The translations under genes and the position numbers were made by a program. A DNA stretch of 64,000 nucleotides from Cinnamomum chago (lineage: Eukaryota; Streptophyta; Magnoliopsida; Laurales; Lauraceae). Location: positions 41,137,501 to 41,201,500 of the forward strand of contig CP142458.1 of assembly GCA_038049695.1 (NCBI GenBank), read 5' to 3'. How positions within the stretch are numbered: position 1 is the first letter of the stretch; every line of letters starts with the position of its first letter. The notes beneath the pieces are model-generated. The model saw nothing but the letters and a program-made list of their open reading frames with translations. It did not search any database and was not told the origin of the DNA. Below are positions 8,771 through 56,783 of this stretch, piece after piece.

Positions 8771-8811
8771 GGCAACCAAAACTACCCCGACAACCCTTCT
8801 GGAGAGCTCCT

Positions 8812-14847: not shown

Positions 14848-14851
14848 TTCC

Positions 14852-15896: not shown

Positions 15897-15914
15897 TGGC
15901 GCCGTTGCCGGGGA
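15897..15914 (+). other. Primer binding site for tRNA-Asp
   Basis: TGGCGCCGTTGCCGGGGA is the exact complement of the 3' end of plant tRNA-Asp including CCA, the primer typical of Athila/Calypso elements. It is separated from the LTR end (CA at 15889-15890) by the six bases AGTTCT. That spacer matters because it reappears at the aberrant 3' junction. Confidence 0.9.
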
Positions 15915-17087: not shown

Positions 17088-17792
17088 ATGGCTGCCCAAA
17101 ACCTTCAGCAAAGGACCCTTAATGAACTATTTGCACCATTTTCATCCACTTCACCTAGTTGTATAGTTTTGCCAGAAAATAATGCGAACCAATTTGAGAT
17201 CCGGCCCGCCACCATCAACATGTTACCAAAATTCCATGGATCCGAGTGTGAGCAGCCCTATATTCATGTGAACAAATTTCTGACCATCTGCCACACGTTT
17301 AAGAATCAAAATCTGAATAGTGAAGCTGTGCAGCTTAGGTTGTTTCCCCTCTCACTAGAAGATCATGCAGCCGCTTGGCTGAATTCCTTGACTCCAAACT
17401 CCATTACCACCTGGGATGAGCTTGTGAAAAAGTTTATGTCCAAATTTTTCCCAGTAAGTAAAACTGAGCAGTTTAGGAGTGCCATCAGGAACATTAGGGG
17501 ACGACTCGAGGAGGAGTTTTCCGAAACCTGGGAGAGATTTCATGACCTATTGATCAAATGCCCACATCATGGGATTGACAAAGGAGAGTTGATACATTTC
17601 TTTTATAGAGGTCTTACAAATCCCCAGCGTATCTTGATTGAATCAATGCATAAAGGAGAATTCATGAATCAAACTACTGATCAAGCATACGAATTCCTTG
17701 TCAAGCTTGCAGAAAATTCACAAAATTGGAGCAGTAGTAGGAAAGACTTAGAGAGAGATGAGATAGGGATCCAGAAGCCTGGAATGTACAAC
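17088..17792 (+). pseudogene. gag: Athila gag, N-terminal piece (split by C1)
   Basis: This encodes the capsid part of the Ty3-type gag polyprotein, which forms the virus-like particle. The frame is open from 16980, but the ATG at 17088 (MAAQNLQQRTLNEL) is the likely start because family members begin near this RTL(K/N)EL motif. Visible gag features are LLPKFHG-like text at about residues 48-54, a DHAAAWLNSL core, TWDELVKKFMSKFFP and a C-terminal FYRGL segment, matching the retrotransposon gag domain. The frame ends artificially at TGT TAG, whose bases belong to the LTR of C1. After C1 and one ACAAC target copy, the same frame resumes at 25233, so gag was intact until C1 inserted. Confidence 0.88.
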
Positions 17793-18258
17793 TGTTAGGA
17801 ATTTTCTAGATTGCAATTTGATGGATGCATTTCATTCTAGCTTCATTTGATTTACACACTTGCATTGGTTTTAAATAAACTTGAAATCTTGTTTTATTCA
17901 TGCATTGCTTTTAAGATTTGTAAAAATATTGATGTATGCATGATTTGTATTTTCATCTTGGATGCATTTGTTTTAGAAAAGAGTTTTCAAGAAATCAAGC
18001 AAGCCTTTGTTTTAAAAGTTTTGAATCTTTTTAGGCTTTTTATGTCATGTTTTAAAAACCATTAGAATCTTTAAAACATGTTTTCCAAGCTTGATTTAGT
18101 AGGCAAAAAGGTCCCCCAAGCAAAACCTTCATATATGCAAAAGTTGCATTTTTTGCAAAAAGGGGGGGAGTCCCGGCAGTGTCGCCGGTCGACCGAGACA
18201 CAGGTCTCGGTCGACCGAGACAACTGGAGGTAAAATTTACAGTTTCTGAACTGAAACC

Positions 18259-18340
18259 TCCAACGGTCAGAAATCTGACCGTTGTGCCTTCCCGGTCGAC
18301 CGAGACCTCTTTGCCGGTCGACCGAGAACTAGCCGTTGGG
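18259..18340 (+). promoter_or_regulatory. Two MSA-like (MYB3R) motifs in the C1 promoter
   Basis: TCCAACGGTCA at 18259-18269 and, on the minus strand, CCCAACGGCTA at 18330-18340 both fit the plant M-phase-specific activator consensus YCYAACGGYYA. The first is one arm of an 11-bp inverted repeat (CAACGGTCAGA...TCTGACCGTTG). They lie 10-90 bp upstream of the TATA box. This suggests G2/M-phase transcription, which is inference. Confidence 0.6.
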
Positions 18341-18350
18341 CACTTTTTGC

Positions 18351-18358
18351 TATAAATA
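18351..18358 (+). promoter_or_regulatory. TATA box of the C1 5' LTR
   Basis: TATAAATA in TTGCTATAAATATGAG, directly downstream of the palindrome and MSA cluster. It is repeated at 23568 in the 3' LTR, and C2 has TATAAAG at 45682. Confidence 0.75.
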
Positions 18359-19107
18359 TGAGTTCTTTCCCTTGCCAAAAGTTGGGAATTTTTAACCCCT
18401 CCTTGAGAGGATTTGAGGCATATCAAAAGGGAAAAGAACCAAGGGATGAAGGGGAAGATTAGGAAAGCTAAAGCTTGGATTAATGAAGTTAAACCACCAA
18501 GTAGGCTCTTCCTTTCTTAATCATATGTTTTCATGCTTTGTTTTATTTTTGGTAAATCATTTCTAGCATGATAAACTATGTTTGTGTTGTGTCCTTAACA
18601 TGTGTTATGTTTTGAGTTGATTTATTGTTTTGGATACAACACCATATGATTCAATTCAAGTAGTACTTAACTTTGGTAAATCTAAGTAGATCATGTTAAT
18701 GTAAAAACCTTTGAAATCATATGTAACATGATCCATATACTTGGTTGAATCTTTGGTTGTTGTTTTCCATCATAAGAAAATCACTTTCAAAACTATCTTA
18801 TGTTTTGGACTCAACCTCTTTACAAATCATATGTTTTCATGTTTTGTTTTATCATTGGTAAATCTTTGTAACATGTTAATATATGATATGTTGTATCCTT
18901 AGCATATTCTATATTTTGAATAGATCTATTGTTTTGGATACATCACCATTGATTCATCAAAGTAGTACTTTATTGGTAAATCTAAGTAGATCATGTTAAT
19001 GAAAGATGTAACATGATTCATATACTTTGTTGAATCTTTGGGTGTTGTTTTTCCATCATAAGAAAATCTCCTTCAAATGTATCTTATGTTTTGGATTCAA
19101 CATCATT

Positions 19108-19206
19108 ACAAATCATATGTGTATTATTGTTTTAATGCTTCACAACTTGCCTTACTTTGATTGGTAAATCATTTTCAAGTTGTCCTTATAATTACATATG
19201 ATTTGT
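19108..19206. repeat. Nested perfect hairpins in the C1 LTR
   Basis: The outer arms ACAAATCATATGT (19108-19120) and ACATATGATTTGT (19194-19206) pair perfectly over 13 bp. The inner arms ACAACTTG (19142-19149) and CAAGTTGT (19176-19183) pair perfectly over 8 bp. The inner loop contains TTGGTAAATC, which also lies in the loops of other hairpins in this LTR. Confidence 0.85.
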
Positions 19207-20011
19207 CCCCTCTTTTCAATCAAATCTATTTTTATGTTTTGAGCTTCATTGATGATTTGATTGACATCCCTATGCATCACATGTTTAGAGCTAATCCATT
19301 TCATACAACTTGTGTAACTTTGATATCATTAACAAGTTGTTACTTTTAACATGTGATTGCATTACATCCTCAATCATAAATGTTTTTGAGCTAAAACTTT
19401 CAAAAGCCTTAGGCTTACATTTATGAGCTTTCATTTTCTAAATGATTGAGGACCACACACACACACTTCATTTGTTTTCATCTTTGCATTCATAGTGTGA
19501 GTGTGTATTAGAATTTCACTTCCATATCCGCCTATTTAAGAGGCAATGTAATGAGCTTAATAGAATCTCCATCAAGTGTATTAAAGACACTAAATTAGAG
19601 AGATAACCAACCTTATGGTTGAAGAGGTTATTGCTTAGCCTATAAAAGCATATTGTATAGGTTGATGTTAAGCCTTGAAAAACATCAATGTAAAGGTTAT
19701 TGCTTAGCCTTGGAAAGCATATTGTAAAGGTTATTGCTTAGCCTATTGAAAAGCATAAATAGTGGAAATCCGGTGGGGTGTTGGATCACAAGCCGGTAGT
19801 GGATGTAGGCATTGAGGCCGAACCACTATAAATACTTGTGTGATGGTGCTTGCTTTGTGGTGATTGCTTATATTAGCTTCCGCATATTGTTTGATAATCA
19901 TCACTTGTGACTAGTTTGTTTTAAAGAAGTTAAAATTGTTAAAATTGGTCATAAAAGAAGCTCACCCTATTCACCCCCCCTCTAGGGTTCGGATCCCCAT
20001 GGACTTTCAAG

Positions 20012-20022
20012 TGGTATCAGAG
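20012..20022 (+). other. Primer binding site of C1 (tRNA-iMet)
   Basis: TGGTATCAGAG, two bases after the LTR end, complements the 3' end of plant initiator tRNA-Met for 11 bases. The match stops one base earlier than in C2. Confidence 0.8.
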
Positions 20023-20289
20023 AGGGTTACTCCATTTTAGGGCTTAACAACCCGGAGTTGATCCTTGCTAGATTAGAACCCTAGTGTTGTGATTTAATTG
20101 CATATCTTTTTAAAGATTTCCACTATAATTGAAAATGTTTTTCCCTAGCCTCTTTGCACCACTCTTAGACTTTTCTAAGTTATATCTTCTAGAGTTGGTG
20201 AGTCCTCAAAGTGATCTCTCAAGGACACATTTTCAAGACCTTAGGTTTATTTTCAAAGGTAGACTATTTGAGTAACCTTAAGGCCTTGA
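20023..20289 (+). other. C1 leader; gag region deleted
   Basis: This short non-coding stretch occupies the place of the gag-like gene in C2. Sequence around 20260-20290 (GACCTTAGGT, CCTTAAGGCCTTGA) matches the end of that gene and its downstream flank at 48450-48500, so C1 appears to be a relative that lost the frame. Confidence 0.6.
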
Positions 20290-22440
20290 TACCCCTAGAC
20301 CAACCTTTTCTTTTTAGTTATATCTATTTGTTGGTCATAGTACATTTGCATTTTGTTTCTTTATAGTCATCTTTTAAAATGCAATGTTTCTTTGTGATCA
20401 TTTGATTTTGCCTTCATGAACTTTTAAAGTTATATCTCATGGTTTTCAAAATCCTTTGATTGCAATACTTTCATGATGGATTTGCATTTTGATCATATAG
20501 TTATATCTCTTGTTGTGCATATCTAGTCATGATCAATTGATTGTGATTACAAATGCTTTCATAGCTAGTTTTTCATGATCAATTGATGTTGGAAAATCAT
20601 TTGATGATTGTCATAGTTATATCCTTTTTGCATATCAAATGATTTGAAGCTATTTAAGTTTTCCATTGATTTTTCAAAGTTATATCTCTTGGTATGGAAA
20701 CTTTGTGAGTGTCTATTGTTTTACAATTTGAAAATTTACAATAGTACACTTCGTGTTTTTCAAATTCACTTGCTCTTATTTCTAAATGATTCTTTATTGG
20801 AATTTCATATATTGAAGTGATTTGAGAAACTTTGGAAAATGTTCTATGCTTTATTAGTTATATTTCTAGAAGCATTTTCCTTGAATTTATTTCCTTGTGC
20901 CTAATTATGATTATATCATTTGGAAGGAAATAATTTTTACAAACAATTTGCATCTTTGCTCATTGAGTTACATTCTTTATGCAAATTGATTTTGTTGTCT
21001 TACATTGCATGGTTGGATATGATTTCATTGATTTGCATGTTTGTGCCTAACTTGGTATATTCTCATTAATGCATTTTGATGATTGTTTATGTGCTTTATA
21101 GTAAAATCTTGTATTTGAGCTTTTTAAGTACATATGTGATTTTATGTGCTAAGTTCATTTGGTTTAAACCTCATATCCTTTTCCATTGCATTGTAAGCAT
21201 TAGTACATTTGCTAAGAGTGGAGATGTTACATGATAGATTGATTCCTTTAACTTCATACCTTCTTGTGCTTAAATAGTTATATTCCTTTTTGGATGATTG
21301 GTATGAGTTAGATCTTGAATGTTGATTAATCCTCTCTATGCAAATGTCATATGGTTCTTTGTATGGTTGTGGTATTTATTATATTTGTAGAAACCATACT
21401 AGAACCCAAATCCATCCTCTATGCCTTTCTAGTCATATCTTTTTGGATGGTTATGATGTTGATTCATGTGTATTTTCTAAGTGATTTCATTCTTATACAT
21501 GTTTCAACTTCATAGTAGTGTTCTTAATCATATGAAACTCTTTGAAACCCATTTCTCATATTTCTATATGTTTGATGGATATCTTAGATGTTGAACTCAT
21601 ATGATTTTGACACTTTGTAAATTGCATGCATTACATAGTAATATCCTTTTGCATTGCAATTTACCTTGTTCATCACTATGCTCAATAGTTATATCCTTAA
21701 AAGTGATGAATATGCATTTATGATGCTTGATGGAAGTTTGTCACTTTCTTGCTCTTTATCATGTTATCAAATTCAATTGGATTCAATTGGTATATTGTTT
21801 GATTGATTTGATTTCTTGTGAATGTGATAAACCTTGTGTGCATTGGATTGAACTTGATAAGTAATATGATTGTTCCATGTCACACACCATTAGCATCATA
21901 ATGCTCATGTTGCCACCTCTTTTGCTCATATAGGTATATCTCATGACCACCATGTTTATGTGTTCATAATATTGGTTGGTTATTAGTTGAGGTTGGCTTC
22001 ATGTTTGAATTTCATTTCACTCAATTTGCACTTTAATAAGTCATATTTTTGATTGAATGAAATGATTTTCAAAATCTTACATAGCATATGTTTTTCATAA
22101 GTAATATTGATTGATGCTATGTTTGAGTAAACCCCATATCATGGATAGCTCTAATTTGGATTTCTCATAATAGTTATACTTTTAAATCCATTTTAGAGTG
22201 ATTGATTTATTAAGTAATATCCTAAATCTCAATTGGTATTCTTTGTTTGTCCAATTGATATCCATGATTGCTTTTCTCATTAGACCTAGCTCTCTTTTGG
22301 TAATTTGATCATATTGTGCTTTATAGTTAAATGAATCTAATCTTTTCTTTGAAGTTGACCCTCACTTGGTTAAACCATCTTCTTCTTGTACCTAATAGTT
22401 AAATCTTTGTCAAGAGTTTGACAAAAGAAGAGAATGGATT
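20290..22440 (+). repeat. C1 array of consecutive hairpins with a shared loop motif
   Basis: The region is a chain of imperfect inverted repeats, roughly 20 or more, each 40-80 nt. Examples with perfect stems: 20298-20304/20330-20336 (GACCAAC), 20594-20605/20634-20645 (AAATCATTTGAT), 20887-20896/20924-20933, 20944-20953/20979-20988 (CAATTTGCAT), 21669-21677/21702-21710 (TTCATCACT) and 22079-22087/22114-22122 (ACATAGCAT). The stem 22149-22163/22184-22198 pairs at 13 of 15. Many loops hold AGTTATATC or a close variant. Stems differ in sequence, so this is not a tandem repeat. No open frame is present. Confidence 0.85.
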
Positions 22441-22635
22441 GAGGGGGAGTGTAAACCTTCATAGGAAGTATTAGTTTTGATCAAATTCACCCTTGGATTG
22501 TCTTTGAGCCCTTAGAGACTTCTACCTCACATGATAGCCTGTTATGCATTTCATTTTCGATTTCAATTGTTAACAGGTGCTACTAAAGGTATTTTCTTTG
22601 TTTCATGTGTGTAGGTACCTTTGCAATTTAATGGC

Positions 22636-23009
22636 AAAGGGGGAGAAATTATGCAAGTTCTCAAAAGGGTAAAGAGAATGTCCAAGCTTCCTAAGGGGAG
22701 TGTTGTGTATGATCTTCTACAAGGGGAGAGAATACATACCTTGCCAAAGGGAGAAAGAGGCATGGTCAAAGGGGGAGAGCAAATAGAAGAAAGAAAGCTT
22801 GGAAGCTAAAGAAGATGCTTGGCTAAAGAAAGAAAGATTGAAGAACGATCAAGCTCCAAGCATCAAGAAGAATGAAGAGAAGAAAAGAGCCCAAGCTAAG
22901 AGAAGCATCCAAGAAGATTTCAAGACTTGTCCAGCTGAGGGGGAGCTGAAGACTAAGTGTCTAATCTCTGTGGTGAGTGTGTTTGCCATCAAATTGCAAA
23001 GGGGGAGAT
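22636..23009 (+). other. Multiple polypurine tracts of C1
   Basis: AAAGGGGGAGA occurs exactly at 22636, 22768 and 22998, with shorter versions between. The last abuts the 3' LTR (one T between) and is the functional primer for plus-strand DNA; the others are upstream copies. Multiple tracts are a reported Sirevirus trait. Confidence 0.8.
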
Positions 23010-23041
23010 TGTTAGGAATTTTCTAGATTGCAATTTGATGG
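22986..23041 (+). repeat. Hairpin spanning the C1 polypurine tract/3' LTR junction
   Basis: CCATCAAATTGCAA (22986-22999) and TTGCAATTTGATGG (23028-23041) are a perfect 14-bp inverted repeat. The purine tract and the first bases of the LTR lie in the loop. C2 has a 15-bp version at 50873-50927. Confidence 0.9.
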
Positions 23042-25227
23042 ATGCATTTCATTCTAGCATCATTTGATTTACACACTTGCATTGGTTTTAAATAAACTTG
23101 AAATCTTGTTTTATTCATGCATTGCTTTTAAGATTTGTAAAAGTATTGATGTATGCATGATTTGTATTTTCATCTTGGATGCATTTGTTTTAGAAAAGAG
23201 TTTTCAAGAAATCAAGCAAGCCTTTGTTTTAAAAGTTTTGAATCTTTTTAGGCTTTTTATGTCATGTTTTAAAAACCATTAGAATCTTTAAAACATGTTT
23301 TCCAAGCTTGATTTAGTAGGCAAAAAGGTCCCCCAAGCAAAACCTTCATATATGCAAAAGTTGCATTTTTTGCAAAAAGGGGGGGAGTCCCGGCAGTGTC
23401 GCCGGTCGACCGAGACACAGGTCTCGGTCGACCGAGACAACTGGAGGTAAAATTTACAGTTTCTGAACTGAAACCTCCAACGGTCAGAAATCTGACCGTT
23501 GTGCCTTCCCGGTCGACCGAGACCTCTTTGCCGGTCGACCGAGAACTAGCCGTTGGGCACTTTTTGCTATAAATATGAGTTCTTTCCCTTGCCAAAAGTT
23601 GGGAATTTTTAACCCCTCCTTGAGAGGATTTGAGGCATATCAAAAGGGAAAAGAACCAAGGGATGAAGGGGAAGATTAGGAAAGCTAAAGCTTGGATTAA
23701 TGAAGTTAAACCACCAAGTAGGCTCTTCCTTTCTTAATCATATGTTTTCATGCTTTGTTTTATTTTTGGTAAATCATTTCTAGCATGATAAACTATGTTT
23801 GTGTTGTGTCCTTAACATGTGTTATGTTTTGAGTTGATTTATTGTTTTGGATACAACACCATATGATTCAATTCAAGTAGTACTTAACTTTGGTAAATCT
23901 AAGTAGATCATGTTAATGTAAAAACCTTTGAAATCATATGTAACATGATCCATATACTTGGTTGAATCTTTGGTTGTTGTTTTCCATCATAAGAAAATCA
24001 CTTTCAAAACTATCTTATGTTTTGGACTCAACCTCTTTACAAATCATATGTTTTCATGTTTTGTTTTATCATTGGTAAATCTTTGTAACATGTTAATATA
24101 TGATATGTTGTATCCTTAGCATATTCTATATTTTGAATAGATCTATTGTTTTGGATACATCACCATTGATTCATCAAAGTAGTACTTTATTGGTAAATCT
24201 AAGTAGATCATGTTAATGAAAGATGTAACATGATTCATATACTTTGTTGAATCTTTGGGTGTTGTTTTTCCATCATAAGAAAATCTCCTTCAAATGTATC
24301 TTATGTTTTGGATTCAACATCATTACAAATCATATGTGTATTATTGTTTTAATGCTTCACAACTTGCCTTACTTTGATTGGTAAATCATTTTCAAGTTGT
24401 CCTTATAATTACATATGATTTGTCCCCTCTTTTCAATCAAATCTATTTTTATGTTTTGAGCTTCATTGATGATTTGATTGACATCCCTATGCATCACATG
24501 TTTAGAGCTAATCCATTTCATACAACTTGTGTAACTTTGATATCATTAACAAGTTGTTACTTTTAACATGTGATTGCATTACATCCTCAATCATAAATGT
24601 TTTTGAGCTAAAACTTTCAAAAGCCTTAGGCTTACATTTATGAGCTTTCATTTTCTAAATGATTGAGGACCACACACACACACTTCATTTGTTTTCATCT
24701 TTGCATTCATAGTGTGAGTGTGTATTAGAATTTCACTTCCATATCCGCCTATTTAAGAGGCAATGTAATGAGCTTAATAGAATCTCCATCAAGTGTATTA
24801 AAGACACTAAATTAGAGAGATAACCAACCTTATGGTTGAAGAGGTTATTGCTTAGCCTATAAAAGCATATTGTATAGGTTGATGTTAAGCCTTGAAAAAC
24901 ATCAATGTAAAGGTTATTGCTTAGCCTTGGAAAGCATATTGTAAAGGTTATTGCTTAGCCTATTGAAAAGCATAAATAGTGGAAATCCGGTGGGGTGTTG
25001 GATCACAAGCCGGTAGTGGATGTAGGCATTGAGGCCGAACCACTATAAATACTTGTGTGATGGTGCTTGCTTTGTGGTGATTGCTTATATTAGCTTCCGC
25101 ATATTGTTTGATAATCATCACTTGTGACTAGTTTGTTTTAAAGAAGTTAAAATTGTTAAAATTGGTCATAAAAGAAGCTCACCCTATTCACCCCCCCCTC
25201 TAGGGTTCGGATCCCCATGGACTTTCA
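23010..25227 (+). repeat. 3' LTR of C1
   Basis: Nearly identical to 17793-20009, offset by 5217 bp. Promoter motifs recur at 23476 (MSA-like) and 23568 (TATA). It is followed by the ACAAC target copy. Confidence 0.92.
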
Positions 25228-25232
25228 ACAAC

Positions 25233-45009: not shown

Positions 45010-46841
45010 TGTTAGGTATTTTGTATTTGCAATTTGATGGATGCATTTGCACTTTAGCATCATTTGATATTTCACACATGCATTGATTTAAAATATCTTG
45101 AAATCTAGCTTTAGACATGCATTGGTTTTTAGATTTGGAAAAGTTTGTGTTTTATGCATGGTTTGGTTCTAAACTTGGATGCATTGGTTTTAGAACCCAA
45201 AACTCTTTTGAAAACCTAATTCCTTGTGCATTATATTTGGAAAATCATGTTAGGTATTTAGGTTTGAGCTTTGCATACATTCATTACAAAAAGAATCATT
45301 TTTGTATGCTTGTTCACTTGAAAAGAGTTTTTATCAAATCAAGCTAGCCTTTGGTTTTAAACCTTTGAATCTTTTTAGGCTTTGTGTGTTTCATGTTTTT
45401 AAATGTTTTAAAACATGTTTTTTTTAAGCTTGGTTTAGTGACCCACAAAATTCCACAAAGAAAATCTTCAAAATGCAAAAGTTGGAATTTTTGGGGGTGT
45501 CCCGGCAGTGTCGCCGGTCGACCGAGACCTGGGTCTCGGTCGACCGAGACCACTGCAGGACAAGTGTACAGTTTTTGAACTGTAAGCCTCCAACGGTCAT
45601 TTTTATGACCGTTGTGCCTTCCCGGTCGACCGAGACCTCTTTGCCGGTCGACCGAGAACTAGCCGTTGGCAACTTTTTGGCTATAAAGTCCATTCATTTC
45701 CAACCTTCTTTGGTGCTTGAAACTTGAACCTTTGAGAGCCTTTTGGAGCCATTGAAAGGGGATGAAGTTGGAAAGGCTAGGAGGCAATTAGGAGAGCTAA
45801 AGCTTGGATTATTAAGTTAAACCACCAAGTAAGCTCTACCTTTATTAATCATAGTTATGTGCTTTGTTTAAACTATTGGTATATGATATTTAGCATAATA
45901 ACTATGATGTGTTGAATCCCTTCTTTTTCTAATCTTTGGTCTAATTAAGATTGGATTCTTCACCTTTGTTTTCAATCCAAGTTGTTAACTTTGTTAATCA
46001 TGCTTAGACAAAATCCTTGTTTTTCTTTCATAGCATGAGTCTTTTACTTGGTTGAAACATTGCTTGTTGTTTTCATTCATTTAAGCATTAGTAAAATTTA
46101 TTTGGTTTTGAAAACAACATTGCACATGCATCACATGTTCTAAGTTAGTCATTTTCATACAACTTGTGATTCTTTGATTTTCATATCATTAACAAGTTAT
46201 TAATCATACATGTGATTTGCATTAAACTTCAATCAAGTCTTTTATGAGTCTTAAACTTTGAAATGCCTTGGGCATACATTTGATTAAGCTTCCTTTTTAA
46301 TCTTGATTGAAGTCATCACACACACACCTCATTAGCATACATCTTTGCATTCTTAGAGTGTTTGTGTGAGTTTGTTTTAATTTTCATATCCGCCTTTTTA
46401 GAGGCAAATTAAATTGAGCTTAAATTGTATCTCTTGGAGTGTTCTTTTGTGAAGACACTTTCTTTGAGAAATCTTGATTTGTAAAGGTTATTGCTTAGCC
46501 TTGAAAAGCACTTTGTAAGGTTGTTGTTTAGCCTTTGAAAAGCAACATTGTATAGGTTATTGCTTAGCCTTTGAAAAAGCATACATAGTGGAAATCCGGT
46601 GGGGTGATTGGATCACAAGCCGGTAGTGGACGTAGGCATTGAGGCCGAACCACTATAATCATTGGTGTTGTGGTGCTTGCTATTGTGGTGATTGTTTTAT
46701 TAGCTTCCGCATTTTGTATGGTTAATCATCTCATTTGACTAGTTTAGTTTAAGAATTTAAAATTGGTCTAAATTGGTCACAATTGTAGCTCACCCTATTC
46801 ACCCCCCCCCCCTCTAGGGTTAGGATCCTCGTGGACTTTCA
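45010..46841 (+). repeat. C2 first LTR (1832 bp)
   Basis: It starts TGTTAGGTATTTTG and ends GGACTTTCA. It has GGTCGACCGAGAC palindromes (45512-45655), an MSA-like TCCAACGGTCA at 45589, TATAAAG at 45682, a hairpin CATAGTTAT/ATAACTATG (about 45850-45915) and a poly-C run of 11. Confidence 0.93.
45589..45688 (+). promoter_or_regulatory. C2 LTR promoter: MSA-like motif and TATA box
   Basis: TCCAACGGTCA (45589-45599) fits the mitotic MSA consensus and forms an inverted pair with TGACCGTTG. Two GGTCGACCGAGA palindromes follow, then TATAAAG at 45682-45688. The layout matches C1. Identical copies lie 5887 and 11774 bp downstream. Confidence 0.6.
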
Positions 46842-46843
46842 AT

Positions 46844-46857
46844 TGGTATCAGAGCCA
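46844..46857 (+). other. Primer binding site of C2, first interior (tRNA-iMet)
   Basis: TGGTATCAGAGCCA complements plant initiator tRNA-Met for 14 bases, two bases after the LTR. Confidence 0.88.
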
Positions 46858-46957
46858 AGTGCTCTAATCCCTTAGGATCAAGTGTTTGGAACTCTTGATT
46901 AGGTGTAAAAACCTAGAGTTAAAACACTAGAGTTGTGCTTATTTGAAAATCATTAGA

Positions 46958-48493
46958 ATGGACTCCACTAGGCTAGACTTTGTAGATTCTTCTAGACCTC
47001 TCACTCTTCCTTCTATTAGAGATTCAAACCATCAATTAAATGAATATCAATTTGACTCAAAAGAGGAAGAAATTGAGTATGATGAAGATGATCTTCAACA
47101 AGCCTACAATGAATTATATACATTATCTACAAAGCTTGATAAAAGAAACAAAAGCTTAAGAGAAGAATCTATGAATCTAACCAAAGATCTAGCCTCTTCA
47201 AAAGATGAACTTAGAGAGAAAGAAGAAGTAATAAATTGTGTAGAGTCTAAGTTCATGATCTCTTTAAATAACCTATCCAACATTCAAGATGAACTAAAAG
47301 AATTAAAGATGGGTTATGAAAATGTCAATAAGGAAAATCTAAAACTAAGAGATCAATTACAAAGGCAAGATAAAGACTTTAACAATCTTGAATCTAATTT
47401 GACTATCTCTAAGGAAAATTTATCTAATGCTCAAGATGAAATAAATGAGATTAAGATAAATTATGATGAGCTTAAAAATGAAAATTTAAACCTAAGAGAT
47501 ACAATTAAAAGACAAGATGAAGACCTTGACAATTTAGAAGCCAAGTTGATCAAAAGTAAGTTAAAAACCAAAGAACTTGGATCTAAAGTTGTTAATGAAT
47601 TAAAACTTGCCAATGAAGAGCTAATCAAATATAAGGAAATTGAAAATGAACTTTCAAAAGTCAAACATGAAAATTCAATCCTTATAACCAAAGTCACTCA
47701 ACTTGAAAGCTATAAACAAAAGTATGAGTGCAAGTTTACCCAAAGTGAAGAGAAACTTGAAAAATTATTCAAATTGGGTAAATCTCATGGAGATAGGACG
47801 GGTCTTGGATTTAATAGGAATATGACATATGACCCTAAATTCACCAACACTTTTGTGAAAGGTGAGTCCTCATTCTCTAGCACTCTTTCTCTTTTGCCCA
47901 AAACCAAATGCAATTATTGTGGCATAGAAGGGCATTTTATGTTTGAGTGCAAACTAAGAAAGAGAAGCCATGTGTCTAAACCCATCTTTGAACTAAAAAA
48001 TGGAGAATCAAAACCTATGAAGGGTAAGACACTAAAAATCAAGAAAGACTCCAAAATGTCTAAACAAGTTAAATCTCTTAAAAAGGAGTCTCCCAAGATA
48101 GATTCTAAAAAGCTTAAACAAGTTAAACCAAGCTTGAAAGAATCTAAAAACAAAAAGCTTCTCAACCTACCTCCCTTATATGAACCCATGAAAGAACTTT
48201 TGAAGAAAGTTGCTAAGTTAAATCTAAAATTCAAAAGTCAAGTAAAGGGAGAAAGTAAGAAGAAAAGAAAAGTGAAACAATCCCCAAAGAAACAAACTCA
48301 CCAACATCAAAAGACTAATCACCATTCTAAGCCAAATTTAGTAAAATCTAAATATCATGGTGATAAGTTCAAATTGAAAATTTATCAAGTTAAATCTCCT
48401 ATAGTTGGTGAGAAGTCCAAAATAGACCTCAAAGTTCAACCCTCTCAAGACCTTAGGTGGATTCCTAAAGTTATTTACCTAGACAAACCTTAG
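46958..48493 (+). CDS. gag: Gag-like coiled-coil zinc-knuckle protein, copy 1
   Basis: The first in-frame ATG (46958) gives a 511-residue protein. Residues about 30-265 are highly charged heptad-like text (repeated KLRDQLQRQDKDFNNLE-type blocks) expected to form a long coiled coil. A GDRTGLGF motif and a CX2CX4HX4C zinc knuckle (47909-47950) follow, as in the C-terminal half of Ty1/copia Sirevirus-type gag. The tail is very Lys/Ser-rich and ends near RWIPKV, resembling the WVPK text that usually precedes protease. The usual N-terminal capsid domain and all enzymes are absent. It may package the element's RNA into a partner's particles. This is inferred. The identical copy is at 52845. Confidence 0.85.
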   Translation: MDSTRLDFVDSSRPLTLPSIRDSNHQLNEYQFDSKEEEIEYDEDDLQQAYNELYTLSTKLDKRNKSLREESMNLTKDLASSKDELREKEEVINCVESKFMISLNNLSNIQDELKELKMGYENVNKENLKLRDQLQRQDKDFNNLESNLTISKENLSNAQDEINEIKINYDELKNENLNLRDTIKRQDEDLDNLEAKLIKSKLKTKELGSKVVNELKLANEELIKYKEIENELSKVKHENSILITKVTQLESYKQKYECKFTQSEEKLEKLFKLGKSHGDRTGLGFNRNMTYDPKFTNTFVKGESSFSSTLSLLPKTKCNYCGIEGHFMFECKLRKRSHVSKPIFELKNGESKPMKGKTLKIKKDSKMSKQVKSLKKESPKIDSKKLKQVKPSLKESKNKKLLNLPPLYEPMKELLKKVAKLNLKFKSQVKGESKKKRKVKQSPKKQTHQHQKTNHHSKPNLVKSKYHGDKFKLKIYQVKSPIVGEKSKIDLKVQPSQDLRWIPKVIYLDKP

Positions 48494-48499
48494 GGCCTT

Positions 48500-50290
48500 G
48501 AACCTACTTGACCAACCTATTCTTTGTAAGTTAAATCTCTTTGTTGGTCATGTTGCATTTGCATTTTGTTCTTTATAGTTACATTTCTTGAAATGCATTG
48601 CTTCTTTATGATCAATTGATTTTGTCTTCATGCACCATTTCAAGTTACATGTCATGGTTTTCAAAATCATTTGATTATAATTTCATCATGTTTGATTTGC
48701 TTTTTGCACTCATATGCCTTGCATTGCATTTCTTTACATGATTAATTGATTGTGATGTTAAAAGCTTTCATAGCTAGATTTATTCATGATCAATTGTTGT
48801 TGAATCATTTGTAAGACTATTTGAACAAATGATTTGACTCAATTCAAGTTTTTCCATGGACTTCTAAGTTATACTTGTATATGGAAAATCATTGTTTTGA
48901 AAAATCAACTTGTATGTGTTTTAATGAAGTTATATCTTTTCAAATACAATGTTGATAATTGATCTTCAAAATCATTCCTTTTATGCTCATTGTTGAATTT
49001 TGTTTATTGAAATGATTTGAAGATTGGATGATTGGAAATGCTCTATAACTTCATTAGTTAGATTCATCAAAGCATGTTCCATGATTCTCATTTCCTTTTC
49101 TTTTGGTTGTATTATCTTTAGAAATGGAAATGTATGTTGTTTGCATCTTTGCTTATTTAGTTATTCTTTTTATATGCAAATGACAATTGGTTCCATGTAT
49201 GGTTGTGATATTGGTAGTATTTGTAAAAACCATACTAGAACCCAAATCCATCCTCTATGCCTAATAGTCATTTCTTTGTGGATGGTTATGATGTTGATTC
49301 ATGTGTATTCTCTTGATATCATCCTTATACATGTTTCAACCTCATATTAGTGTTCTTGATCATATGAACCTTTTTGAAATCCATTACTTGTATTTCATAG
49401 TTATATCTCTTGTTTGATGGATTTCTTAGTGTTGAATTCATATGATCTAGACACTTTGGAAATTGCATGCATTACAAAGCTTTATCCTTTTGCATTGCAA
49501 TTTGCCTTGTTCATCACTATGCTCTTTAGGAATATCATTAAAAGTGATGAATATGCATTTATGATGCTTGATGGAAGTGTATCACATCCTTGCTTTTACT
49601 CATGTTATCATATTCAATTGGTTTCATTTGGTATAATGTTCCATTGATTTCATATCCAATTGATATCTTATCTTGTGTATGTGATAGACCTTGTGTGCTT
49701 TGGACTAATCTTCATAGTTATATGATTGTTCCATGTCACACACCATTAGCATCATAATGCTCATGATTGCCACCTCTTTTGTTCTTATAGTTATATCTCA
49801 TGACCACCATGTTTATGTGTTCATAATAGTGGTTGGTTATTAGTTGAGGTTGGCTTCATGTTTGAATTTCATTTCACTCAATTTGCACTTTAATAGTCAT
49901 ATTTATTGATTGATTGAAATGAGTTCAAAACCTTACATAGCATATGATTTTCATAAGTTATATTGTTTGATGCTATGTTTGAGAATACCCCATATCATGG
50001 ATAGCTCTAATTTGGATTTTTCCTAATAAGTAACATTCTTGAATCCATTTTAGAGTGATTATGTTAATAGTCATATCCTTTAATCTCAATTGATATGTTT
50101 GTTTCAATTGATATCCATGATTGCTTCTCTCATTTGTCCTAGCTCTCTTTTGGTAATTTGATCATATGTGCTTTATAGTTATATGAATCTAATCCTTTCC
50201 TTGAAGTTGACTCTCACTTGGTTAAACCATCTACTTCTTGAATCTAATAGTTATATCTTGTCAAAAGCTTGACAAAAGAAGAGAATGGAT
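48500..50290 (+). repeat. C2 hairpin array, first interior
   Basis: Homologous to the C1 array at 20290-22440. Stems include 48803-48812/48825-48834 (AATCATTTGT/ACAAATGATT), 49089-49095/49126-49132 (CATTTCC/GGAAATG), a GGTTC...TATGGTT pair around 49190-49250, TTCATCACT/AGTGATGAA near 49513-49553 and ACATAGCAT/ATGCTATGT near 49935-49980. Loops often hold AGTTATATC or variants. No coding frame. Confidence 0.85.
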
Positions 50291-50486
50291 TGAGGGGGAG
50301 TGTAAACCTTCATAGGAAGAATTAGTTTTGATCAAATTCACCCTTGGAATGCTATTGAGCCCTTAGAGTTAACTTACATACATGATAGCCTGTTATGAAT
50401 TTCATTTTCGATTTCATTTGTTAACAGGTGCTACTCAAGGTATTCTTCTTGTCTCATGTGTGTAGGTACCTTTGCAATTTAATGTC

Positions 50487-50896
50487 AAAGGGGGAGAGAG
50501 AGTTCAAGTGTGACTCAAAGATCTCCTACTCTTCAAAGGGGGAGAGAGTTCGAGAGTTCAAGTACTCGAAGATCTCCTATCCATAAAAGGGGGAGAAAGC
50601 CTTCAAGTTCTCACGAGGAAGAGAAAGAAGCATGGTCAAAGGGGGAGAGCAAATAGAAGAAAGAAAACTTGGAGCTAAAGAAGATGCTTGGCCATAGAGA
50701 GGAAGATGATAAGAAAGCTTGAAGAATGATCAAGCACCAAGCATCAAGAAGATTGAAGAAAAGAGCCCAAGAGCCCAAGCTAAGAGAAGGAGCATCCAAG
50801 AAGATTTCAAGACTTGTCCAGCTGAGGGGGAGCTGAAGACCTTGGTGTGTTATTTCAATGATGAGTAAGTTGCCATCAAATTGCAAAGGGGGAGAT
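50487..50896 (+). other. Five polypurine tracts, first interior of C2
   Basis: AAAGGGGGAGA occurs exactly at 50487, 50535, 50586, 50638 and 50885. Only the last touches an LTR. The second interior has the same set, from 56374 to 56783. Confidence 0.85.
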
Positions 50897-50927
50897 TGTT
50901 AGGTATTTTGTATTTGCAATTTGATGG
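50873..50927 (+). repeat. Hairpin spanning the C2 polypurine tract/LTR junction
   Basis: CCATCAAATTGCAAA (50873-50887) and TTTGCAATTTGATGG (50913-50927) are a perfect 15-bp inverted repeat with a 25-nt loop that holds GGGGGAGAT and the LTR start. Repeated at 56760-56814. Confidence 0.9.
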
Positions 50928-52728
50928 ATGCATTTGCACTTTAGCATCATTTGATATTTCACACATGCATTGATTTAAAATATCTTGAAATCTAGCTTTA
51001 GACATGCATTGGTTTTTAGATTTGGAAAAGTTTGTGTTTTATGCATGGTTTGGTTCTAAACTTGGATGCATTGGTTTTAGAACCCAAAACTCTTTTGAAA
51101 ACCTAATTCCTTGTGCATTATATTTGGAAAATCATGTTAGGTATTTAGGTTTGAGCTTTGCATACATTCATTACAAAAAGAATCATTTTTGTATGCTTGT
51201 TCACTTGAAAAGAGTTTTTATCAAATCAAGCTAGCCTTTGGTTTTAAACCTTTGAATCTTTTTAGGCTTTGTGTGTTTCATGTTTTTAAATGTTTTAAAA
51301 CATGTTTTTTTTAAGCTTGGTTTAGTGACCCACAAAATTCCACAAAGAAAATCTTCAAAATGCAAAAGTTGGAATTTTTGGGGGTGTCCCGGCAGTGTCG
51401 CCGGTCGACCGAGACCTGGGTCTCGGTCGACCGAGACCACTGCAGGACAAGTGTACAGTTTTTGAACTGTAAGCCTCCAACGGTCATTTTTATGACCGTT
51501 GTGCCTTCCCGGTCGACCGAGACCTCTTTGCCGGTCGACCGAGAACTAGCCGTTGGCAACTTTTTGGCTATAAAGTCCATTCATTTCCAACCTTCTTTGG
51601 TGCTTGAAACTTGAACCTTTGAGAGCCTTTTGGAGCCATTGAAAGGGGATGAAGTTGGAAAGGCTAGGAGGCAATTAGGAGAGCTAAAGCTTGGATTATT
51701 AAGTTAAACCACCAAGTAAGCTCTACCTTTATTAATCATAGTTATGTGCTTTGTTTAAACTATTGGTATATGATATTTAGCATAATAACTATGATGTGTT
51801 GAATCCCTTCTTTTTCTAATCTTTGGTCTAATTAAGATTGGATTCTTCACCTTTGTTTTCAATCCAAGTTGTTAACTTTGTTAATCATGCTTAGACAAAA
51901 TCCTTGTTTTTCTTTCATAGCATGAGTCTTTTACTTGGTTGAAACATTGCTTGTTGTTTTCATTCATTTAAGCATTAGTAAAATTTATTTGGTTTTGAAA
52001 ACAACATTGCACATGCATCACATGTTCTAAGTTAGTCATTTTCATACAACTTGTGATTCTTTGATTTTCATATCATTAACAAGTTATTAATCATACATGT
52101 GATTTGCATTAAACTTCAATCAAGTCTTTTATGAGTCTTAAACTTTGAAATGCCTTGGGCATACATTTGATTAAGCTTCCTTTTTAATCTTGATTGAAGT
52201 CATCACACACACACCTCATTAGCATACATCTTTGCATTCTTAGAGTGTTTGTGTGAGTTTGTTTTAATTTTCATATCCGCCTTTTTAGAGGCAAATTAAA
52301 TTGAGCTTAAATTGTATCTCTTGGAGTGTTCTTTTGTGAAGACACTTTCTTTGAGAAATCTTGATTTGTAAAGGTTATTGCTTAGCCTTGAAAAGCACTT
52401 TGTAAGGTTGTTGTTTAGCCTTTGAAAAGCAACATTGTATAGGTTATTGCTTAGCCTTTGAAAAAGCATACATAGTGGAAATCCGGTGGGGTGATTGGAT
52501 CACAAGCCGGTAGTGGACGTAGGCATTGAGGCCGAACCACTATAATCATTGGTGTTGTGGTGCTTGCTATTGTGGTGATTGTTTTATTAGCTTCCGCATT
52601 TTGTATGGTTAATCATCTCATTTGACTAGTTTAGTTTAAGAATTTAAAATTGGTCTAAATTGGTCACAATTGTAGCTCACCCTATTCACCCCCCCCCCCT
52701 CTAGGGTTAGGATCCTCGTGGACTTTCA
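50897..52728 (+). repeat. C2 middle LTR (1832 bp)
   Basis: Same length as the first LTR and apparently identical. It serves as 3' LTR of the first unit and 5' LTR of the second. Confidence 0.93.
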
Positions 52729-52730
52729 AT

Positions 52731-52744
52731 TGGTATCAGAGCCA
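52731..52744 (+). other. Primer binding site of C2, second interior (tRNA-iMet)
   Basis: Same 14-base match as at 46844, shifted by 5887. Confidence 0.88.
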
Positions 52745-52844
52745 AGTGCTCTAATCCCTTAGGATCAAGTGTTTGGAACTCTTGATTAGGTGTAAAAACC
52801 TAGAGTTAAAACACTAGAGTTGTGCTTATTTGAAAATCATTAGA

Positions 52845-54380
52845 ATGGACTCCACTAGGCTAGACTTTGTAGATTCTTCTAGACCTCTCACTCTTCCTTC
52901 TATTAGAGATTCAAACCATCAATTAAATGAATATCAATTTGACTCAAAAGAGGAAGAAATTGAGTATGATGAAGATGATCTTCAACAAGCCTACAATGAA
53001 TTATATACATTATCTACAAAGCTTGATAAAAGAAACAAAAGCTTAAGAGAAGAATCTATGAATCTAACCAAAGATCTAGCCTCTTCAAAAGATGAACTTA
53101 GAGAGAAAGAAGAAGTAATAAATTGTGTAGAGTCTAAGTTCATGATCTCTTTAAATAACCTATCCAACATTCAAGATGAACTAAAAGAATTAAAGATGGG
53201 TTATGAAAATGTCAATAAGGAAAATCTAAAACTAAGAGATCAATTACAAAGGCAAGATAAAGACTTTAACAATCTTGAATCTAATTTGACTATCTCTAAG
53301 GAAAATTTATCTAATGCTCAAGATGAAATAAATGAGATTAAGATAAATTATGATGAGCTTAAAAATGAAAATTTAAACCTAAGAGATACAATTAAAAGAC
53401 AAGATGAAGACCTTGACAATTTAGAAGCCAAGTTGATCAAAAGTAAGTTAAAAACCAAAGAACTTGGATCTAAAGTTGTTAATGAATTAAAACTTGCCAA
53501 TGAAGAGCTAATCAAATATAAGGAAATTGAAAATGAACTTTCAAAAGTCAAACATGAAAATTCAATCCTTATAACCAAAGTCACTCAACTTGAAAGCTAT
53601 AAACAAAAGTATGAGTGCAAGTTTACCCAAAGTGAAGAGAAACTTGAAAAATTATTCAAATTGGGTAAATCTCATGGAGATAGGACGGGTCTTGGATTTA
53701 ATAGGAATATGACATATGACCCTAAATTCACCAACACTTTTGTGAAAGGTGAGTCCTCATTCTCTAGCACTCTTTCTCTTTTGCCCAAAACCAAATGCAA
53801 TTATTGTGGCATAGAAGGGCATTTTATGTTTGAGTGCAAACTAAGAAAGAGAAGCCATGTGTCTAAACCCATCTTTGAACTAAAAAATGGAGAATCAAAA
53901 CCTATGAAGGGTAAGACACTAAAAATCAAGAAAGACTCCAAAATGTCTAAACAAGTTAAATCTCTTAAAAAGGAGTCTCCCAAGATAGATTCTAAAAAGC
54001 TTAAACAAGTTAAACCAAGCTTGAAAGAATCTAAAAACAAAAAGCTTCTCAACCTACCTCCCTTATATGAACCCATGAAAGAACTTTTGAAGAAAGTTGC
54101 TAAGTTAAATCTAAAATTCAAAAGTCAAGTAAAGGGAGAAAGTAAGAAGAAAAGAAAAGTGAAACAATCCCCAAAGAAACAAACTCACCAACATCAAAAG
54201 ACTAATCACCATTCTAAGCCAAATTTAGTAAAATCTAAATATCATGGTGATAAGTTCAAATTGAAAATTTATCAAGTTAAATCTCCTATAGTTGGTGAGA
54301 AGTCCAAAATAGACCTCAAAGTTCAACCCTCTCAAGACCTTAGGTGGATTCCTAAAGTTATTTACCTAGACAAACCTTAG
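52845..54380 (+). CDS. gag: Gag-like coiled-coil zinc-knuckle protein, copy 2
   Basis: 511 residues, identical in translation to the product of 46958-48493, with the zinc knuckle at 53796-53837. The identity, together with equal spacing of all other parts, shows that the duplication is recent or ongoing. Function and limits are as for copy 1: coiled coil, zinc knuckle and basic tail are seen; an RNA-packaging role is inferred; no enzyme domains follow. Confidence 0.85.
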   Translation: MDSTRLDFVDSSRPLTLPSIRDSNHQLNEYQFDSKEEEIEYDEDDLQQAYNELYTLSTKLDKRNKSLREESMNLTKDLASSKDELREKEEVINCVESKFMISLNNLSNIQDELKELKMGYENVNKENLKLRDQLQRQDKDFNNLESNLTISKENLSNAQDEINEIKINYDELKNENLNLRDTIKRQDEDLDNLEAKLIKSKLKTKELGSKVVNELKLANEELIKYKEIENELSKVKHENSILITKVTQLESYKQKYECKFTQSEEKLEKLFKLGKSHGDRTGLGFNRNMTYDPKFTNTFVKGESSFSSTLSLLPKTKCNYCGIEGHFMFECKLRKRSHVSKPIFELKNGESKPMKGKTLKIKKDSKMSKQVKSLKKESPKIDSKKLKQVKPSLKESKNKKLLNLPPLYEPMKELLKKVAKLNLKFKSQVKGESKKKRKVKQSPKKQTHQHQKTNHHSKPNLVKSKYHGDKFKLKIYQVKSPIVGEKSKIDLKVQPSQDLRWIPKVIYLDKP

Positions 54381-54386
54381 GGCCTT

Positions 54387-56177
54387 GAACCTACTTGACC
54401 AACCTATTCTTTGTAAGTTAAATCTCTTTGTTGGTCATGTTGCATTTGCATTTTGTTCTTTATAGTTACATTTCTTGAAATGCATTGCTTCTTTATGATC
54501 AATTGATTTTGTCTTCATGCACCATTTCAAGTTACATGTCATGGTTTTCAAAATCATTTGATTATAATTTCATCATGTTTGATTTGCTTTTTGCACTCAT
54601 ATGCCTTGCATTGCATTTCTTTACATGATTAATTGATTGTGATGTTAAAAGCTTTCATAGCTAGATTTATTCATGATCAATTGTTGTTGAATCATTTGTA
54701 AGACTATTTGAACAAATGATTTGACTCAATTCAAGTTTTTCCATGGACTTCTAAGTTATACTTGTATATGGAAAATCATTGTTTTGAAAAATCAACTTGT
54801 ATGTGTTTTAATGAAGTTATATCTTTTCAAATACAATGTTGATAATTGATCTTCAAAATCATTCCTTTTATGCTCATTGTTGAATTTTGTTTATTGAAAT
54901 GATTTGAAGATTGGATGATTGGAAATGCTCTATAACTTCATTAGTTAGATTCATCAAAGCATGTTCCATGATTCTCATTTCCTTTTCTTTTGGTTGTATT
55001 ATCTTTAGAAATGGAAATGTATGTTGTTTGCATCTTTGCTTATTTAGTTATTCTTTTTATATGCAAATGACAATTGGTTCCATGTATGGTTGTGATATTG
55101 GTAGTATTTGTAAAAACCATACTAGAACCCAAATCCATCCTCTATGCCTAATAGTCATTTCTTTGTGGATGGTTATGATGTTGATTCATGTGTATTCTCT
55201 TGATATCATCCTTATACATGTTTCAACCTCATATTAGTGTTCTTGATCATATGAACCTTTTTGAAATCCATTACTTGTATTTCATAGTTATATCTCTTGT
55301 TTGATGGATTTCTTAGTGTTGAATTCATATGATCTAGACACTTTGGAAATTGCATGCATTACAAAGCTTTATCCTTTTGCATTGCAATTTGCCTTGTTCA
55401 TCACTATGCTCTTTAGGAATATCATTAAAAGTGATGAATATGCATTTATGATGCTTGATGGAAGTGTATCACATCCTTGCTTTTACTCATGTTATCATAT
55501 TCAATTGGTTTCATTTGGTATAATGTTCCATTGATTTCATATCCAATTGATATCTTATCTTGTGTATGTGATAGACCTTGTGTGCTTTGGACTAATCTTC
55601 ATAGTTATATGATTGTTCCATGTCACACACCATTAGCATCATAATGCTCATGATTGCCACCTCTTTTGTTCTTATAGTTATATCTCATGACCACCATGTT
55701 TATGTGTTCATAATAGTGGTTGGTTATTAGTTGAGGTTGGCTTCATGTTTGAATTTCATTTCACTCAATTTGCACTTTAATAGTCATATTTATTGATTGA
55801 TTGAAATGAGTTCAAAACCTTACATAGCATATGATTTTCATAAGTTATATTGTTTGATGCTATGTTTGAGAATACCCCATATCATGGATAGCTCTAATTT
55901 GGATTTTTCCTAATAAGTAACATTCTTGAATCCATTTTAGAGTGATTATGTTAATAGTCATATCCTTTAATCTCAATTGATATGTTTGTTTCAATTGATA
56001 TCCATGATTGCTTCTCTCATTTGTCCTAGCTCTCTTTTGGTAATTTGATCATATGTGCTTTATAGTTATATGAATCTAATCCTTTCCTTGAAGTTGACTC
56101 TCACTTGGTTAAACCATCTACTTCTTGAATCTAATAGTTATATCTTGTCAAAAGCTTGACAAAAGAAGAGAATGGAT
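54387..56177 (+). repeat. C2 hairpin array, second interior
   Basis: Copy of 48500-50290 shifted by 5887. No difference noticed. Confidence 0.85.
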
Positions 56178-56373
56178 TGAGGGGGAGTGTAAACCTTCAT
56201 AGGAAGAATTAGTTTTGATCAAATTCACCCTTGGAATGCTATTGAGCCCTTAGAGTTAACTTACATACATGATAGCCTGTTATGAATTTCATTTTCGATT
56301 TCATTTGTTAACAGGTGCTACTCAAGGTATTCTTCTTGTCTCATGTGTGTAGGTACCTTTGCAATTTAATGTC

Positions 56374-56783
56374 AAAGGGGGAGAGAGAGTTCAAGTGTGA
56401 CTCAAAGATCTCCTACTCTTCAAAGGGGGAGAGAGTTCGAGAGTTCAAGTACTCGAAGATCTCCTATCCATAAAAGGGGGAGAAAGCCTTCAAGTTCTCA
56501 CGAGGAAGAGAAAGAAGCATGGTCAAAGGGGGAGAGCAAATAGAAGAAAGAAAACTTGGAGCTAAAGAAGATGCTTGGCCATAGAGAGGAAGATGATAAG
56601 AAAGCTTGAAGAATGATCAAGCACCAAGCATCAAGAAGATTGAAGAAAAGAGCCCAAGAGCCCAAGCTAAGAGAAGGAGCATCCAAGAAGATTTCAAGAC
56701 TTGTCCAGCTGAGGGGGAGCTGAAGACCTTGGTGTGTTATTTCAATGATGAGTAAGTTGCCATCAAATTGCAAAGGGGGAGAT
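56374..56783 (+). other. Five polypurine tracts, second interior of C2
   Basis: The same five AAAGGGGGAGA copies as in the first interior, the last adjoining the LTR at 56784. Confidence 0.85.

Follow-up and report, generated by a model that had tools for sequence, protein, structure and literature searches.

The 64,000-nucleotide (nt) window analyzed here, positions 41,137,501 to 41,201,500 of contig CP142458.1 in the Cinnamomum chago assembly GCA_038049695.1, contains two retrotransposons with long terminal repeats (LTRs), C1 and C2, and a reverse-oriented LTR of the same family, S3. C1 is nested inside a Ty3-type element, with a gag fragment on its 5' side and protease and pol open reading frames (ORFs) on its 3' side. 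Neither C1 nor C2 contains pol. C2 keeps a gag-like ORF, and C1 carries no ORF of 100 amino acids (aa) in its interior (20010-23009); this bears out the preliminary description of that interior as non-coding, and degraded coding sequence was rejected on the same ground. What the C1 interior does contain is an array of hairpins with arms of free sequence and loops that present a common motif at one fixed place. Related arrays occur in C2 and in further copies of the family, and their stems look selected.

The array had first been reported from the letters of the window alone, as consecutive hairpins with unrelated arms at 20290-22440. The five perfect stems named at that stage (12 bp at 20594/20634, 10 bp at 20887/20924, 10 bp at 20944/20979, 9 bp at 21669/21702 and 9 bp at 22079/22114) are all present as placed. 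With loops of 8-45 nt allowed, this segment holds 16 stems of 8 bp or longer, where 100 dinucleotide shuffles average 2.5 and never exceed 8; at 7 bp or more the count is 22, against a mean of 6.8 and a maximum of 11 in 50 shuffles. The stems range from 7 to 16 bp. From one hairpin to another, the arms resemble each other no more than random segments do (likeness 3.15 vs 2.97, p 0.145), so a tandem repeat with shared arms was rejected.

The shuffled-control folding check proposed for C1 also went in favor of the array, as stem number and summed local folding energy both lie far beyond the shuffles (z = -7.7 on the + strand). The C2 chain gave z -6.9 on the + strand vs -4.6 on the - strand, and the end of the C2 ORF -2.4 vs +0.6, the + value not being beyond all 60 shuffles. 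Control stretches 1-2150 and 4000-6150 showed no folding excess. Stem number surpassed all 30 shuffles in 14 of the 32 bins of 2 kb; ten of these bins overlap the C1/C2 family and four lie outside it (12001, 26001, 36001 and 60001). A copia coding stretch next to S3 (60200-62400), assessed visually as a decayed element that would not qualify as a helper, likewise folds beyond its shuffles (z -4.4 and -3.4 at 60200-62350) and has 7 stems of 8 bp vs 1.6 shuffled. Because segments outside the family share it, stem excess alone is not specific to the family.

The more specific feature is the loop. The motif AGTTATATC, with at most one mismatch, occurs 14 times in the C1 array, and 9 of these sites lie wholly within stem loops where 2.9 are expected (p 0.0006), as the preliminary claim of a recurrent loop motif had it; with two mismatches allowed, 14 of 25 sites fall in stem loops (expected 5.3). 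The core could be refined to a degenerate AGTNANATY, which has 17 exact matches in C1 vs 0.5 in shuffled sequence and occupies one set position, away from the centre, in loops of about 26 nt. Anchored on the motif, the commonest layout of the module is a 5' arm, 12 nt, the 9-nt motif, 5 nt and the 3' arm. Motif sites are also predicted to be more unpaired than 9-mers of matched GC content, in C1 (0.58 vs 0.46, p 0.0005), in C2 (0.61 vs 0.46, p 0.0035) and, at p 0.054, in C2 gag (0.75 vs 0.62). By strict stems the placement of the motif in C2 loops is weak (4/9, p 0.11; 8/19, p 0.035), and the motif-anchored test in C2 gave p 0.34 for exact sites (n=4), p 0.06 with one mismatch (n=9) and p 0.0017 with two (n=19). 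Genome-wide counts are 28,199 for AGTTATATC and 11,136 for a control in which it is reversed but not complemented.

We scanned for the complete module, allowing WGKTAWATY one mismatch and requiring 8-15 nt on its 5' side, 3-10 nt on its 3' side and a stem score of at least 7. C1 contains 17 modules, 5 in the R-U5 region (delimited from the position of the TATA box) and 12 in the interior; 100 shuffles of R-U5 plus interior average 0.39, with a maximum of 3, and none of the 17 is antisense. Of the R-U5 matches, those at 19928 and 19937 overlap and are poor fits to the motif, and the other three read TGGTAAATC. In C2 there are 2 modules in the LTR and 12 in one interior, again with none antisense, and the three modules of S3 all lie on the - strand, which is the sense strand of S3 itself. 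Outside the family the module is rare: the window has one each in 1-17792 and 25228-44650 (one duplicated place) and one, on the - strand, in 60138-64000. A set of 19 other loci of the same genome (166 kb) held 9 and 16 modules on the two strands. The array had been presented as a feature of C1 20290-22440; it is present there, but it is not confined to that segment, as it extends to the LTR, C2, the C2 ORF, S3 and four more copies. A 15-bp inverted repeat around a polypurine tract of C2 (50901) also fits the module geometry and, as one case, may hint at how the module arose.

Conservation was assessed across six elements: C1, C2 and, also from this genome, the C1-like L009 and the C2-like L010, L011 and L015. 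In L010 the LTR passes from its first ~165 nt straight into the array, with loss of gag, the primer site and most of the 5' LTR; being a deleted copy, it was not counted as evidence for gag loss. In alignment columns with letters in at least five of the six elements, the per-site difference in the well-aligned half of C1 is 0.044 for arms, 0.116 outside them and 0.150 for loops (p 3e-5 for the lower value of arms relative to outside). Across the complete arrays, the difference is 0.079 in arms vs 0.159 in surroundings for C1 (p 1e-7) and 0.100 vs 0.145 for C2 (p 0.003). Arms thus evolve 1.4-2.6 times more slowly than their surroundings. At the 3' end of the C2 ORF, hairpin arms vary at 2 of 74 sites and the rest of the ORF at 169 of 1208 (p 0.0015); at third positions only, the counts are 2/27 vs 73/402 (p 0.12).

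For compensation, arms were placed independently in each element and a stem was dropped for an element if either arm matched at below 60%. Where both sides of a pair had changed, pairing was kept in 9 of 10 cells with C1 as the reference (null mean 1.3), and in 12/17, 9/11 and 7/11 cells with C2, L011 and L015 as references. Permutation means were 0.7-1.6, and none of 1000 permutations reached the observed value with any of the four references. The cells are not independent events, since the elements are related; the distinct compensated pairs number 5, 5, 4 and 3 for the C1, C2, L011 and L015 references and overlap between them. A pairwise comparison of C1 and C2 gave 13 vs 6.3 (p 0.0065) and 12 vs 5.4 (p 0.0035). 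Not every pair is preserved: in the hairpin at 21617..21664 the pair next to the outer one is broken in C2 (T-A to G-G). Together, slowly evolving arms and two-sided changes that keep pairing make the stems look selected.

In the loops, constraint falls on the fixed letters of the motif. For 14 hairpins in up to six elements, with loops shorter than 14 nt dropped, 74 of 83 orthologous loops contain AGTNANATY with at most one mismatch, compared with 16% of shuffled loops, a share biased upward because the hairpins were chosen for a motif in C1 or C2; the G is present in 78 of the 83. The difference between orthologues is highest at positions 4 (0.31), 6 (0.25) and 9 (0.20) and lies between 0.06 and 0.14 at the other six. 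Possible matches of the motif to PUF sites, the U1 5' splice site and tRNA anticodons were considered and dropped, positions 4 and 6 being free.

Table 1. Coordinates of the elements, arrays, hairpins and cis-signals in the window.
Feature	Position	Strand	Remarks
C1, complete LTR element	17793..25227	+	Target duplication ACAAC
C1 5' LTR	17793..20009	+	CGGTCGACCG palindromes at 18186, 18208, 18293, 18315; marks as in PMC2829016
C1 TATA box CTATAAATA	18350	+	Downstream of the CGGTCGACCG palindromes
LTR hairpin TCATGCT/AGCATGA, loop TGGTAAATC	18531..18571	+	Presumed R-U5; 7-bp stem also in S3
LTR hairpin, loop TGGTAAATC	18828..18885	+	12 nt before motif, 5 nt after
LTR hairpin ACAACTTG/CAAGTTGT, loop TGGTAAATC	19142..19183	+	
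C1 C-rich signal	19974	+	Near LTR end
C1 primer binding site TGGTATCAGAG	20012..20022	+	
C1 hairpin array	20290..22440	+	22 stems of at least 7 bp; no 100-aa ORF
Hairpin GACCAAC/GTTGGTC, loop AGTTATATC	20298..20336	+	
12-bp hairpin, loop AGTTATATC	20594..20645	+	Loop-near pair A-T (also L009, L011) is T-A in C2, L010, L015
Hairpin, loop AGTTATATT	20834..20880	+	
Hairpin, loop GATTATATC	20883..20937	+	
10-bp hairpin, loop AGTTACATT	20944..20988	+	
10-bp hairpin, loop AGTAATATC	21617..21664	+	Outer G-C is A-T in L009
11-bp hairpin, loop AGTTATATC	21667..21712	+	Arms identical in 6/6 aligned elements
Hairpin, loop AGTCATATT	22012..22065	+	
9-bp hairpin, loop AGTAATATT	22079..22122	+	Outer A-T is T-A in L009
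Long hairpin, loop AGTTATACT	22148..22199	+	
Hairpin without loop motif	22229..22258	+	Inner G-C is A-T in C2, L010, L011
Five AGGGGGAG polypurine tracts, C1	22442..23007	+	Last (23000) followed by AT/TG attachment site
C2, LTR-internal-LTR-internal-LTR	45010..58614	+	Target duplication GCAAT; insertion site within reverse LTR S3
C2 TATA box CTATAAA	45681	+	
C2 gag-like ORF, 511 aa from ATG	46958..48493	+	Predicted long helix, CCHC knuckle, basic tail
Four hairpins in 3' end of C2 ORF	48046-48091, 48099-48146, 48196-48238, 48313-48369	+	Loops AGTTAAATC, AGTTAAACC, AGTTAAATC, AGTAAAATC; also L011, L015
C2 hairpin array	48495..50320	+	After ORF stop
S3, larger part of reverse-oriented LTR of the C1/C2 family	58615..60137	-	Smaller part on other side of C2
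S3 module hairpins	59090, 59411; 44735	-	First two in larger part; third in other part, poorer motif fit

Both elements are young. The 5' and 3' LTRs of C1 differ at 2 of 2216 aligned sites, which marks a recent move, and the repeats of C2 show no substitutions between them. A C2 unit has 7 AGGGGGAG polypurine tracts. Both elements conserve an intron-like stretch, running from AACAGGTGCTACT to GTGTGTAGGTACC (C1 22577-22615, C2 50427-50465), that follows the array and precedes most of the polypurine tracts. A pair of 21-nt segments in C1 (22618-22638 and 22982-23002) is 95% complementary, lies 343 nt apart and flanks the region of multiple polypurine tracts. Two copies of a repeat, at 13782-15897 and 31978-34108, are 99.3-99.6% identical, have their two segments in opposite order and bracket C1 together with the Ty3-type ORFs. 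No relatives were found in viral and bacterial collections.

Measured on three copies, of which one has a shortened frame, the ratio of nonsynonymous to synonymous change (dN/dS) of the C2 ORF is 0.46-0.50, which points to purifying selection. Its product has no Pfam match at 1e-3. A search of ~5.8 billion proteins, in which the best 8000 candidates by shared words were scored, returned two homologues of similar length (69 and 60% identity) in other public data; as they share its length, the truncated Gag form may itself be old. AlphaFold2, given three sequences, modelled residues 48-203 as a helix that is confident over most of its length and residues 213-260 as a second, less certain helix; confidence is low for the remainder and for the model overall (mean predicted local distance difference test 53.5, predicted TM-score 0.22). 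No gag ORF was detected in C1 or in L009, where the stretch examined holds none of 80 aa.

Querying the genome with half of the C1 array returned 5643 first-look candidates, of which 40 were scored; these 40 are 94-100% identical. The C1/C2 family may therefore have thousands of copies in this one genome. Among the 40 scored matches, 29 lie in regular runs with a spacing of 4.95-5.32 kb, which look like long LTR-internal tandem arrays, C2 being a short one. Runs of C1-interior copies occur at C3:73322727-73382283 (12), C10:42503328-42535660 (7), C9:30393140-30409837 (4), C6:42487973-42498976 (3) and C6:41998840-42010578 (3).

Considering that C1 and C2 are young and without pol, selection should act on their cis functions. 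The array is kept in C1 and L009, which have no gag, and the C2 ORF appears to be under purifying selection; the selected function of the array is thus probably exercised in cis. The array lies in sense orientation and continues into the LTR 3' of the TATA box and into the C2 ORF. Motif orientation favors a single-stranded reading, and the array likely acts as RNA. Exposed guanosines in loops are targets of nucleocapsid proteins. By analogy, a constant G in an exposed AU-rich loop, repeated many times, could be read by a zinc-knuckle protein.

Our leading, still tentative, proposal is that the array forms a putative multivalent site for Gag or truncated Gag and so aids packaging. The C1 transcript would carry the hairpins, each presenting AGUNANAUY with its nearly constant G at one fixed loop place, and a CCHC nucleocapsid-type protein, either helper Gag or the truncated Gag of C2-type copies, would bind them. 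The many hairpin copies would raise avidity, and the parasitic RNA could then compete for packaging into helper particles. We prefer packaging as the role because it is the step at which a parasitic RNA gains most, and Gag binding is the best inference among the roles proposed earlier. Of those roles, dimerisation by loop-loop kissing through the motif found no support, since its reverse complement is not enriched in any of four segments (C1 chain 0, C1 R-U5 1, C2 post-gag chain 1, C2 gag 2; shuffled means 0.4-0.8). In an unlikely elaboration, packaging would have two components: C2-type copies would encode an adapter, a Gag remnant with helical rod, zinc knuckle and basic tail, together with its cognate array, and C1-type copies, having lost the adapter, would live on the array as parasites of a parasite.

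Several observations weigh against the leading proposal. The - strand folds nearly as well as the + strand in the C1 chain (z -7.3 vs -7.7), and in C1 R-U5 it folds better (z -6.0 vs -4.3). The array of L015 holds one antisense module. The 9-nt motif, taken as a block, is roughly as variable among orthologues as the remaining loop. Column covariation in a single alignment of the six rows was not significant (3 vs 1.3, p 0.13; 3 vs 2.4, p 0.43), which we attribute to gaps that MAFFT misplaced between the arms. Finally, one-sided changes of Watson-Crick pairs, read on the + strand, lean to RNA inconsistently: G-T vs A-C outcomes are 25:15 (p 0.10) and 25:12 (p 0.14), and 18:4, 8:5, 7:7, 18:6, 10:11 and 11:2 in the six-element set. 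Given this inconsistency, the counts do not separate RNA from single-stranded DNA.

Second after packaging ranks a host factor, a reading we consider possible but on the unlikely side. Here the array would bind a host RNA-binding protein for nuclear export, stability or escape from silencing, with Gag uninvolved, much as constitutive transport elements act in some retroviruses. The modules, arm conservation and compensation fit this account equally well. Packaging signals are usually located in the 5' leader, and the modules span most of the presumed transcript, beyond any such leader. No host factor with AGUNANAUY specificity has been identified, however, and the gene-less C1 has its array in common with copies that keep a zinc-knuckle ORF.

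Quite unlikely, in our judgement, is a reading in which the array was the normal linker of an autonomous Sirevirus and was retained after deletion of pol; its role, for example in compaction or in plus-strand synthesis close to the polypurine tracts, would then be that of the full element and no adaptation of a parasite. Sirevirus linkers of 0.52-3.96 kb with several polypurine tracts are given in PMC2829016, and the C1 and C2 arrays stop just 5' of five and seven such tracts. Hairpins also occur in the LTR and the gag ORF, however, which lie beyond any linker, and the main text of PMC2829016 does not use the word hairpin, nor do its Results mention such an array.

A mutational origin is improbable. 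Template switching at a recurrent motif could make and correct inverted duplications in the absence of selection, which would account for stems that are mostly perfect and for arms that are unlike between hairpins; such correction would also yield two-sided changes. Correction alone, however, neither lowers divergence between elements nor fixes the place of the motif in the loop, and the arms evolve more slowly than their flanks within the coding ORF too. Least probable of all is a function at the DNA level, in which a nuclease or DNA-binding protein would recognize hairpins extruded in single-stranded cDNA or as cruciforms: the folding of the - strand in C1 and the lack of an established G-U preference would suit it, but motif and geometry keep one strand orientation in C1, C2 and S3 (which single-stranded cDNA could also provide), and the C2 ORF end leans to + strand folding only, within the range of its shuffles.

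If packaging through Gag is the role, these elements bear on an open question, namely how protein-less retrotransposons compete with the RNA of their helper. Assays of binding and packaging would have a well-defined unit to work with in a repeated, compensated hairpin with one loop code. As the structure repeats and the stem sequences do not, repeat finders tuned to sequence likely miss such arrays.

In their cis-signals C1 and C2 resemble the Sireviruses (SIRE1, Maximus and OPIE; Ty1/copia), whose marks in PMC2829016 include several polypurine tracts, an AT/TG attachment site, an inverted repeat around the last tract, CGG-CCG palindromes, a TATA box, a C-rich signal and a characteristic 5' junction. 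Both elements have multiple AGGGGGAG tracts 5' of the 3' LTR, the last followed by AT/TG with an inverted repeat around it (15 bp in C2), and both have a TATA box downstream of the palindromes and a C-rich signal near the LTR end (PMC2829016). The 5' junction, CA/A(T or G)TGG-TATCAGAGC, is exact in C2 and reads TATCAGAGA in C1, with one difference from the form in PMC2829016. The palindrome CGGTCGACCG of C1 equals the Vitis CGG-CCG motif in Table 3 of PMC2829016 and likewise lies upstream of the TATA box. Of 21 elements treated there, 13 bear such a motif, at no fewer than 8 copies per motif-bearing element; C1 differs in having four exact copies per LTR and none in its interior, counting exact copies only (PMC2829016). 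C1 and C2 further differ in lacking pol, C1 in lacking gag, and the hairpin array does not appear in the Results of PMC2829016.

By its cis-signals C1 is thus classified as a gene-less, Sirevirus-type (Copia) derivative resembling the large retrotransposon derivatives (LARDs), there being no pol for placement in a reverse transcriptase clade. Because pol is missing, C1 would depend on an autonomous helper. In common with LARDs as characterized in passages of PMC7215508, C1 is an LTR element with a large core, no coding capacity and presumed trans-complementation. Conserved RNA structure is stated for the LARD group in PMC7215508, and the C1 core has conserved structure that would act as RNA. 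It differs in that C1 and C2 are of Copia/Sirevirus type, that the structure is a repeated unit with a common loop motif, and that C2 keeps a 511-aa gag-like ORF and so falls outside the LARD definition in PMC7215508. The tandem LTR-internal-LTR units of C2, probably present elsewhere in the genome too, have a parallel in Cassandra, a terminal-repeat retrotransposon in miniature, which differs in carrying 5S rRNA sequence and almost no core, according to passages of the same source (PMC7215508).

Among characterized RNA structures, the closest Copia-type case is the Ty1 5' leader, where the SL1a and SL3a hairpins and a pseudoknot, established by means of compensatory changes, have loops that matter for dimerization and packaging in the account of PMC5454406. 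That system uses two complementary kissing loops, in contrast to about 20 like loops without an enriched partner in cis (PMC5454406). A search of C1 17700-25300 against Rfam 15 gave two matches, both sub-threshold (19.9 bits vs a gathering score of 117), so that no known RNA family was assigned to the array. Among the titles and abstract openings surveyed in the literature, none described hairpins with a shared loop arrayed within a retrotransposon. RNA viruses such as MS2 have dispersed packaging signals, in which differing stems present one loop consensus to the coat protein. The arrays of C1 and C2 share with these signals the combination of many stems with one loop consensus, here as predicted hairpins with putative binding.

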